Below are positions 16,994 through 38,522 of a stretch of 64,000 nt of DNA, piece after piece. Below the pieces are notes generated by a model, which saw only the letters and a program-made list of their open reading frames with translations, made no database searches and had not been told where the DNA came from. This DNA comes from Chryseolinea lacunae (lineage in GTDB: Bacteria > Bacteroidota > Bacteroidia > Cytophagales > Cyclobacteriaceae). Location: contig NZ_JAERRB010000005.1 of NCBI RefSeq assembly GCF_016735595.1, positions 62,001 through 126,000 on the forward strand, written 5' to 3'. Each line of letters opens with the position of its first letter. The stretch's first letter is position 1. The position numbers and the translations under genes were made by a program.

Positions 16994-17989
16994 TTACGGT
17001 TGAGCCGGTGCTTTTCTGGCAGACCGCGTTTTCATTAACGCGTCGGCACCCTCGCACGACGAAACCGAAATGGCTTTGAAGGTGGCCGCGGCAATGGTGC
17101 GTTGCTCCTGCAGAACCTTTTCGTTTAGGGTCAGAAAGCCTGATGCGTGGTTAAAGGTCTGGCCTTTTGTTAACACCCAGTTCAGAAAAATTCCGGCCGC
17201 TGTGTTGGGCGATGTTTTGTTGAACAACACGTTCACGCGTTCGTCCACAAACTTTGCGTTGTTGGTTTTTTCGACATAGCCAATCACGTTGTCGAGTGTG
17301 GCATAGACTTGTTCGTCTTTGTCCACCTTGCCGTTCTCGTTCAAGTCGAGGGGAATCACGGCGAGGCCGTCCACTACTTTGCGGGTTTTCACATCGTAGA
17401 TAAAACCCAGGTTGTTAAACGACACGCCGTTGGGGTCGTTCTTCACCGCGCTGGCCAGATCCTGATCGTCGCCTTTCACCCCTGTGCCCTGAATGGCCTT
17501 GGGGTCGTTGCCAAAATGTGCGGCAAATGTTTTCGCAGCACAGGCAGGTTTGTCGCGTGTGTATACGGTGATGGGCGACGGCGCCTGTGTTGACGCAAAG
17601 AAATTTGGAGGCGTTGGCGAGAAGTACAACGACTTAAAATCGCTTTCACTAAACCCACGCGCCTGCCATTGCGCCAGGTCGGCACGCTTGCTGTTGGCCA
17701 CGGGCAACTGCACATAACGTGTGATGGCCACACCCCTGCGGTTGTTTTCCAGGTCCTTGCTTGTCAACGCATAGGCGGCGATGGTAAAGTCAATGCTGTC
17801 GGCCGGAGCGTTGGGCGCGATAGACACGTTTATCTGCGGGTATTCCTTTTTGAATTCCTCGATCCATTTGTTCACCAATGGATACGCGAGGCGTGTGCCA
17901 CGAATCTTCACGATGCCGCTTTCGGTCGACTGGGCAACCGCCAGCGACGCGCTCGCCAGGAGCAAGAGGAAGGCTATTGTTTTTTTCAT
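16994..17989 (-). CDS. Orphan PstS-like anion-binding protein
   Basis: A 331-residue secreted protein with a signal peptide (MKKTIAFLLLLASASLAVAQ). It has the type II periplasmic binding fold pattern of phosphate-binding PstS (KIRGTRLAYPLVNKWIEEFKK, then AITRYVQLPVANS, and ITVYTRDKPACAAKTFAAHFG). The window holds no ABC ATPase or permease to go with it. Residues 215-226 form a textbook EF-hand loop (D-x-N-x-N-G-x-V-D-x-x-E), unusual for this family. It lies between a TonB receptor and a sulfatase, so sulfate capture is an attractive guess, by analogy with the phosphate proteins. Confidence 0.75.
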   Translation of the reverse strand: MKKTIAFLLLLASASLAVAQSTESGIVKIRGTRLAYPLVNKWIEEFKKEYPQINVSIAPNAPADSIDFTIAAYALTSKDLENNRRGVAITRYVQLPVANSKRADLAQWQARGFSESDFKSLYFSPTPPNFFASTQAPSPITVYTRDKPACAAKTFAAHFGNDPKAIQGTGVKGDDQDLASAVKNDPNGVSFNNLGFIYDVKTRKVVDGLAVIPLDLNENGKVDKDEQVYATLDNVIGYVEKTNNAKFVDERVNVLFNKTSPNTAAGIFLNWVLTKGQTFNHASGFLTLNEKVLQEQRTIAAATFKAISVSSCEGADALMKTRSARKAPAQP

Positions 17990-22030: not shown

Positions 22031-22055
22031 ATTATCTACTTATTCTATAGACAAA
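22031..22055 (-). promoter_or_regulatory. Shared promoter/operator element, copy 1
   Basis: A 25-bp stretch that recurs at 38498-38522 with one mismatch. On the plus strand it contains TCTACTTATTC, then T or G, then ATAGACAAA; its ends TCTA and TAGA are inverted. Read on the minus strand it begins TTTGTCTA, so a TTTG -33 box is included. It is 73 bases before the sulfatase B ATG. A sulfur-responsive operator is inferred from context only. Confidence 0.65.
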
Positions 22056-38083: not shown

Positions 38084-38127
38084 AGCGGTGATGAGTTTAT
38101 TAAGTGTGTTTATAGAATGGAGGCCAC

Positions 38128-38186
38128 GGAATGCACCAAATGCTCACAAAAAATCCCACCAGAATTTTCAGGAGACTGGTGCATCC
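38128..38186 (-). promoter_or_regulatory. Candidate attenuator: competing hairpins after the Cys-peptide
   Basis: On the minus strand, CACCAG (38176-38181) can pair with CTGGTG (38157-38162), followed by GG-A and six T: a modest intrinsic terminator. The same bases, as GGATGCACCA (38177-38186), can pair instead with TGGTGCATTCC (38128-38138). Mutually exclusive stems between a Cys-rich leader peptide and the structural genes are the layout of transcription attenuation. Stability was judged by eye only. Confidence 0.45.
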
Positions 38187-38269
38187 GGAAACCATATTGG
38201 AAAATCAGTTTGCAAGTCGCGCATGGAGCATGCACGCTGGGGTATATGGGACTATACCGCAGTTAACCA

Positions 38270-38356
38270 CTAGCAACAACAACCGTTACGGCCTACGCCC
38301 GATGCTTTTTGTGGTACAATTGGATGTGTGCTGAGAAACGCCTTTTGAGTTTTCAT
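38270..38356 (-). CDS. Leader peptide ending in three cysteines
   Basis: ATG at 38356, stop TAG at 38270-38272: 28 residues, MKTQKAFLSTH...GVGRNGCCC. The last three codons before the stop are TGT TGT TGC. It has no signal or membrane helix. It lies 142 bases after the shared 25-bp element and 187 bases before the first structural gene, in a leader that otherwise has no gene. Poly-Cys upstream frames are known in mycobacteria, where ribosome stalling at low cysteine controls sulfur genes; the same use here is inferred. Confidence 0.6.
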   Translation of the reverse strand: MKTQKAFLSTHPIVPQKASGVGRNGCCC

Positions 38357-38497
38357 CGCATGGTGATTTTATAGGTCCCAAAAATTTGTCAACCAGGGTG
38401 TTCGGCCATTGTCTTGGTGGGGGACGTTATGCCAGAAGATCGTCGAGTTCCTGCTCTCTCCCTTCTTTTCTCTATAAAATCAATATGGTGGCTATTG

Positions 38498-38522
38498 ATT
38501 ATCTACTTATTCGATAGACAAA
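38498..38522 (-). promoter_or_regulatory. Shared promoter/operator element, copy 2
   Basis: Twenty-four of 25 bases match the copy at 22031-22055. On the minus strand it reads TTTGTCTATCGAATAAG, then TAGATAAT, with a TTTG -33-like box at its head and inverted TCTA/TAGA ends. It heads the long transcription unit with the leader peptide, SusC/SusD and five sulfatases. A repressor of the Rrf2 type is one possible binder. Confidence 0.65.

Follow-up and report, generated by a model that had tools for sequence, protein, structure and literature searches.

A cysteine-terminated leader peptide before a SusCD/sulfatase operon of Chryseolinea lacunae, a likely member of a Bacteroidia element combining a SAM aptamer with a poly-Cys leader

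A short frame ending in a run of Cys codons lies ahead of the SusCD/sulfatase operon in the window, i.e. the whole 64,000-nucleotide stretch of Chryseolinea lacunae DNA analysed here. It is likely to be one member, with a degenerate aptamer, of an element of the Bacteroidia in which a poly-Cys leader usually follows a SAM-I aptamer; the function of this element is inferred, with no data on SAM binding. In our main reading, to which we give a probability of approximately 0.75, the leader is a cysteine-sensing attenuator that is SAM-gated where the aptamer is intact. Cys sensing, ribosome stalling, gating and termination are inferences, there being no expression data; the frame, its anatomy, conservation, spacing, gene association and frame specificity are shown.

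The original prediction, made from the sequence alone, described a 28-codon frame ending in a Cys run before SusC, SusD and five sulfatases, which held (Table 1). The three Cys residues of the peptide are encoded by codons 26–28. The predicted 415-base leader was not confirmed, since 384 bases separate the stop of the peptide from the start of SusC, and 471 bases its start from that of SusC. The claim that the frame sits alone held only in part, as a second frame of 57 aa lies between the leader and SusC. By eye, its first approximately 23 residues resemble the start of the gene located between leader and SusC in two related loci (L073 and L074), and it is apparently a remnant of that gene. 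The full-length L073 protein also shares 35% identity with a homologue encoded at window positions 17989–16997. The operon further contains a fatty-acid-hydroxylase-family gene and a small gene scoring as NTF2-like.

Table 1. Features of the leader region and of the downstream genes in the window
Feature	Position	Strand	Basis or remark
Operator-like site GTCTATCGAATAAGTAGA	38502..38519	minus	pattern GTCTATNGANTNNNTAGA
Dyad AATCAATA-GCCACCA-TATTGATT	38478..38500	minus	sequence; similar in related leaders; overlaps P1 start
Degenerate SAM-I (RF00162) aptamer	38366..38480	minus	21.4 bits, E 0.008 in 141-base search
P1 3' strand CTATAAAATC	38365..38374	minus	sequence, fold, base profile upstream of 59 other leaders
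Leader peptide MKTQKAFLSTHPIVPQKASGVGRNGCCC-stop	38356..38270	minus	ATG ... TAG, 28 codons
Conserved hairpin CGGATGCACC...GGTGCATTCCG, candidate expression platform	38127..38187	minus	6 leaders aligned
57-aa frame, apparent remnant of gene full-length in L073/L074	37910..38083	minus	N-termini compared by eye
SusC/RagA TonB-linked outer membrane protein	37885-34763	minus	TIGR04056, 832 bits
SusD-family lipoprotein	34727-33114	minus	PF07980
Fatty-acid-hydroxylase-family gene		minus	between SusD and sulfatases
Five sulfatases (31677-29773, 29849-27390, 26904-25219, 25243-23549, 23522-22119)	31677-22119	minus	PF00884 in all five
Small NTF2-like-scoring gene			among the five sulfatases
Second operator-like site, before sulfatase 22014-20494	22035..22052	minus	pattern GTCTATNGANTNNNTAGA; no leader peptide seen
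Sixth sulfatase	22014-20494	minus	behind second operator-like site
Seventh sulfatase	16932-15259	minus	

The Cys ending alone is weak evidence against chance: GGNTGYTGYTGYTRR occurs 10 times in the genome versus 17 for its reversed control, and TGYTGYTGYTRA 83 times versus 48. The case for the peptide therefore rests on position and conservation, through which it is real well beyond chance, its translation itself being inferred. The 28-aa peptide had no match in Pfam (E up to 0.001) or NCBIfam (E up to 1). A literal search for RNGCCC-stop in 98 genomes of the family returned only the window and one other genome, the second match being rejected as chance; it overlaps, in another frame, a coding sequence that is MauE/DoxX-like by eye.

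Position and conservation were assessed through related leaders. A DNA search of six genomes of the genus identified the leader region, with 84% identity, before the orthologous SusC genes of two genomes, G098 (congeneric with the window genome by its kinship label) and G099, and also detected it elsewhere. At 9 of the 10 places chosen from this search (L073–L081), a short frame at the corresponding position ends in CCC to CCCCC directly before the stop; the tenth, at window positions 22055–22013, has only the operator region in common and no Cys leader. The genes behind the nine leaders encode PBP-like proteins, PhyH-family proteins and sulfatases, with a PBP-like protein followed by an FGE-sulfatase-domain protein in L075. 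The PBP-like label is weak, as the window homologue narrowly misses the PF12849 cut-off and Pfam gave no match for the L075 copy.

A search of titled genomes returned 46 SusC loci, to which a strict rule was applied (at least 3 Cys, including CC, in the last 10 residues). The 11 loci with at least 56% SusC identity, which include Chryseolinea, Ohtaekwangia, Dyadobacter, Chitinophaga and Olivibacter among others, have a Cys-rich leader ending in 8 cases, one of which (L289) is the same locus as L074. Lack of Cys conservation in related leaders, which would have refuted the original prediction, was thus not observed. Among the other three, L286 ends in HCCCQTKCSQPGC and narrowly fails the rule, and L284 and L288 have no such leader, another coding frame lying directly upstream of SusC. 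No comparable leader was found at the remaining 35 loci (<40% identity), the isolated frames of L293, L294, L304 and L323 being apparently chance occurrences. At several of these distant loci little sequence is available before SusC (L292, L311 and L322 end within 140 nt), so absence of a leader there is uninformative. Over all 46 loci, 14 frames satisfied the rule on the forward strand versus 4 on the reverse strand. In two Dyadobacter loci (L285 and L290) there is a second Cys-ending frame approximately 3.9 kb upstream of SusC (...FPEPCCCC and ...LPEPCCCS), possibly the leader of a neighbouring operon.

The aptamer in the window fails the RF00162 cut-off of 44.4 bits and was not reported when an 821-base stretch was searched; Rfam at gathering scores gave no match in the window, and an sroD match was rejected (19.1 bits versus a cut-off of 50). 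It retains P1 and P2 and is altered in P3 and P4, with CTATAAAATC pairing with GATTTTATAG at 38481–38472 and ending 8 nt before the leader ATG. Some relatives carry the whole aptamer: RF00162 scores 55.8–71.0 bits in the six paralogous loci L076–L081 and 74.8 bits in both L283, the ortholog from Ohtaekwangia, and L282, which closely resembles it. The close orthologs L074 and L073 score 30.1 and 26.6 bits, below the cut-off. No SAM-I match was found in L075, nor any SAM match (E up to 1) in front of the Cys leaders of L285, L287 and L324; in L291 a SAM match lies on the opposite strand. Unlike in the usual SAM-I arrangement, the nearest downstream start is that of the leader peptide.

A survey of 205 fetched Bacteroidia SAM-I aptamers (RF00162; the searches gave many more, and the best-scoring loci were fetched) showed a poly-Cys leader behind 63, with at least one leader in 46 of the 137 genomes. 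Dinucleotide shuffles of the first 165 loci gave approximately 0.5 expected leaders versus 46 observed. The leader was present at 42 of 67 aptamers labelled metY and at none of 88 labelled metH (Fisher p 1e-20, relatedness uncorrected), at all those of PhyH (3/3) and sulfatase (3/3) genes, and at 15 of 27 others; it was absent from the 10 cystathionine-synthase-like, 5 metX-like and 2 metE/metF aptamers. The predicted tie of the target genes to sulfur therefore held (metY 42/67 and sulfatase/PhyH 6/6 versus metH 0/88). The element is most often seen at metY, the window leader being one case of it. By kinship, metY aptamers with a leader numbered 6/6 in the genus, 22/41 in the rest of the family, 10/15 in the rest of the order and 4/5 in the rest of the class; 25 of the 67 lack a Cys ending by the rule used. 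Beyond the class Bacteroidia the leader was found at 0 of 27 aptamers, though 22 of these are metY; they are part of 29 taken from a phylum search as best-scoring rows, many from one family.

Several features of the sample should be considered. Twelve order-level rows (L230–L241) were hand-picked from multi-aptamer genomes and may inflate the class of others. Each gene label was assigned from a single tblastn reference, and in 11 rows (7 metH, 4 metY) the match begins more than 500 nt away, so that the first gene may differ. Two class rows below the cut-off and three duplicates (L163, L175 and L342) were omitted, and the window, L073, L074 and L075 are outside the 205. Loci L076–L081, first found by DNA similarity, also turned up in the complete set of 22 aptamers scoring above the cut-off in the six genomes of the genus; this set has the leader at metY 6/6, metH 0/6 and others 9/10.

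Two further groups of leaders were observed. Very short ones (18–22 aa; MKNIQNLSFLSQTCCCCC) precede an unnamed protein of approximately 157–182 aa in Chryseolinea relatives (L086, L087 and L090), and a 16-aa leader (MLKTTYYSTCGRMCCY in L236) lies behind a SAM-I aptamer in L236 and L237, followed by a gene that is cysteine-desulfurase-like by eye.

The gene association bears on an alternative in which the nascent peptide, rich in Cys, serves as a metal ligand or redox sensor and does not report the charging of Cys-tRNA. A copper-responsive uORF, reportedly with a Cys motif, has been published (PMC9426467). For the present leaders this explanation appears unlikely, as they go with sulfur genes (comparison identified metY and sulfatases, and inspection by eye suggested CysH-, sulfite-reductase- and cysteine-desulfurase-like genes) and the feature common to the peptides is a terminal run, not a spaced motif.

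The leaders have a characteristic position and composition. Their start lies 7–13 nt after the aptamer in 55 of the 63 cases (searched from -10 to +60), and the window start, at +9, has the modal spacing. Without any selection for Cys, an ATG frame of 10–80 codons starts at +5 to +15 at 58 of the 67 metY aptamers and at 5 of the 88 metH aptamers. The last Cys adjoins the stop in 40 of the 63 leaders, and 53 hold at least 4 Cys in their last ten residues, versus three in the window. Over the final ten codons of the leaders in the metY set, Cys occurs 244 times in frame versus 53 and 10 times in the other two frames. It could be argued that TGT repeats are conserved as an RNA or DNA element, with the peptide as a by-product, and in some metY leaders the repeats can indeed pair with GCAACA segments. 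We regard this as very unlikely, because i) the frame preference is strong, ii) the Cys codons are mixed (217 TGT, 115 TGC) and all three stops are used, iii) many of the runs are interrupted by Met, Ala, Arg or Pro, which breaks the repeat yet preserves the Cys content, and iv) pairing of the Cys codons to downstream RNA is barely above that of shuffles (mean z -0.6).

Upstream of 59 leaders, positions -14 to -12 are A in 75–86%, and the stretch from -17 to -11 consists nearly entirely of A or T, with little C or G. The P1 3' strand falls on this A/T-rich region; given the spacing of the start from the aptamer, P1 overlaps the ribosome-binding region of the leader. Initiation in the Bacteroidota favours such A-rich RNA, and SAM stabilises P1. 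With the P1 3' strand on the A-rich initiation region, SAM should therefore hide the leader start. P1 has 2.4 extra pairs at leader loci and 0.6 at metH; since metY loci without a leader have P1 equally long (2.0), P1 length alone is no proof.

How transcription would be ended is less clear. No consistent intrinsic terminator was found, the best hairpin-plus-U-tract averaging -10.8 versus -8.2 kcal/mol in shuffled sequences (45 of 46 leaders), and the folding of the leader set relative to shuffles (z -1.2) is weaker than that of metH leaders (z -1.8); the pairing of Cys codons to downstream RNA, little above that of shuffles, likewise counts against the attenuator reading. C outnumbers G after the stop in 59 of 63 poly-Cys leaders versus 28 of the 62 metH leaders measured among the 88 (p 1e-9). 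This bias, together with the lack of a consistent U-tract hairpin, favours a Rho-type step. A less likely alternative is that the Cys leader influences how the next gene is translated, by coupling or by exposing its start, and that transcription is not terminated early. For this speak the lack of a consistent U-tract terminator and the hairpin conserved between leader and operon in six aligned SusC-type leaders (Table 1); against it, coupling would have to span a long distance, the leader stop being separated by 384 nt from SusC in the window and by 121–156 nt from metY in most metY leaders inspected (227 in L103), and the C-over-G bias fits Rho. The window stretch of this hairpin folds with z -2.5, and the six leaders contain two paired changes (A-U to G-C and G-C to A-U); as both are common to the near-identical L282 and L283, they represent one lineage. 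A downstream structural platform for SusC-type leaders is thus still conceivable. Between leader and metY, a nested hairpin (GACCCUGCC...GGCA...GGUUACGGCUA) is conserved in five loci of the genus (L082, L083, L085, L089 and L091); Rfam searches of L083, L085 and L091 yielded nothing credible for it, and no further credible Rfam families were found in eight metY-locus stretches.

The attenuation logic of the original prediction is supported in its core, as the Cys codons are found again in leaders of both orthologs and paralogs, and also before sulfur genes. It was incomplete in that the SAM-I aptamer had been overlooked; no terminator/antiterminator pair has been shown, and an effect of cysteine on expression remains an inference. 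In the attenuator model that we prefer, scarcity of charged Cys-tRNA would stall the ribosome on the terminal Cys codons, relieving attenuation so that transcription continues into the SusCD/sulfatase operon. With plentiful cysteine the ribosome would complete the peptide and depart, and the C-rich RNA beyond the stop, being untranslated, would allow transcription to end early, perhaps via Rho. High SAM, acting through the aptamer directly before the peptide, whose P1 covers the A/T-rich ribosome-binding region, would hide the leader start and also turn the operon off. Both no translation and complete translation of the leader would thus mean off and a stall at the Cys codons on, an intact aptamer with a Cys peptide approximating a SAM/Cys NOR gate. 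Since the window aptamer is degenerate, cysteine is probably the main remaining input there.

The operator-like pattern GTCTATNGANTNNNTAGA has 5 matches in the 7.9-Mb genome versus 0 for its reversed control; four copies are at sulfur-scavenging operons and the fifth is inside a gene named by eye as ABC-F-like. A looser pattern, GTCTAY...RTAGA, occurs within 120 bases before all six sulfatase/PhyH aptamers and before 3 of the 27 others. Among aptamers with enough sequence, it was found before 0 of 66 metY, 0 of 88 metH, and 0 of 17 cystathionine-synthase-like, metX-like, metE and metF. An Rrf2-family gene lies directly upstream of the leader in L079, making this family a possible candidate for the regulator of the site, a lead from one gene position only.

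The window copy might also be a relic whose leader controls nothing, as could be argued from its aptamer score of 21.4 bits, the neighbouring gene cut to 57 aa (38083–37910) and the presence of only three Cys. This seems unlikely, since P1, the +9 spacing, the Cys ending, the operator and the downstream helix are all kept, and the leaders without a SAM match in front of them (L285, L287 and L324; E up to 1) retain the Cys ending.

Parts of this arrangement resemble known systems. The polycysteine leaderless short ORFs of mycobacteria, reported as cysteine-responsive attenuators (Canestrari et al. 2020, cited in PMC13236596), are likewise short poly-Cys frames, whereas the present frames start behind a conserved RNA-like element and a P1 strand, occur in another phylum and have SusCD/sulfatase genes and metY as targets. 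Candidate Cys leader peptides of actinobacterial cys and cbs operons, with Cys runs near the stop, have no conserved terminator, and their authors suggest Rho (PMC1262725). The present leaders are similar in having a Cys run near the stop and no consistent terminator, but differ in phylum and genes, and no SAM aptamer appears in the relevant parts of that paper. For the uORFC-8-2 motif before cysS in Rhodobacterales, ribosome-mediated attenuation was proposed from the Cys codons of a uORF (PMC8632094); its tandem Cys codons are usually at 14–15, with a U-run terminator and cysS downstream. The window leader, with Cys at 26–28 ending the peptide, SusC downstream and no consistent terminator, does not meet the criteria for that motif. 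The B12 riboswitches and uORFs of M. tuberculosis also place a riboswitch-controlled translated leader before a gene, with termination-reinitiation named as a route, but the relevant parts of the paper do not present the uORF as sensing an amino acid (PMC11260477). A SAM-II riboswitch that controls metA from a distance (PMC9373788) is related in logic, and leader peptides and riboswitches in Bacteroidetes have been mentioned in general terms (PMC9723704, PMC7366714). We found no description of a SAM riboswitch combined with a leader peptide of this Cys type in the open-access literature searched, subscription papers and preprints being outside its scope, and the combined element has seemingly not been described so far.

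A bolder reading, which as a joint claim we hold to be a little more doubtful than probable, is that i) the element is a natural two-input gate in which a SAM-I riboswitch regulates translation of a cysteine-sensing leader, ii) it turns sulfur-supply operons of many Bacteroidia on only at low SAM and low cysteine, iii) gate and operator were carried onto sulfatase/SusCD scavenging loci, and iv) the aptamer was lost there or perhaps changed its ligand while the Cys peptide was kept. A changed ligand is conceivable because SAM-I variants that bind spermidine instead exist (PMC10853860).

If the reading is true, a single leader in Bacteroidota would respond to two sulfur signals, its riboswitch controlling an attenuator peptide, and the bacterium could switch on its sulfur supply when SAM and cysteine signals are both low. 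An aptamer with a terminal Cys run would then be a simple sequence marker for sulfur-supply genes, and it would be suggested that the SusCD/sulfatase locus of the window serves sulfur supply, not only carbon.
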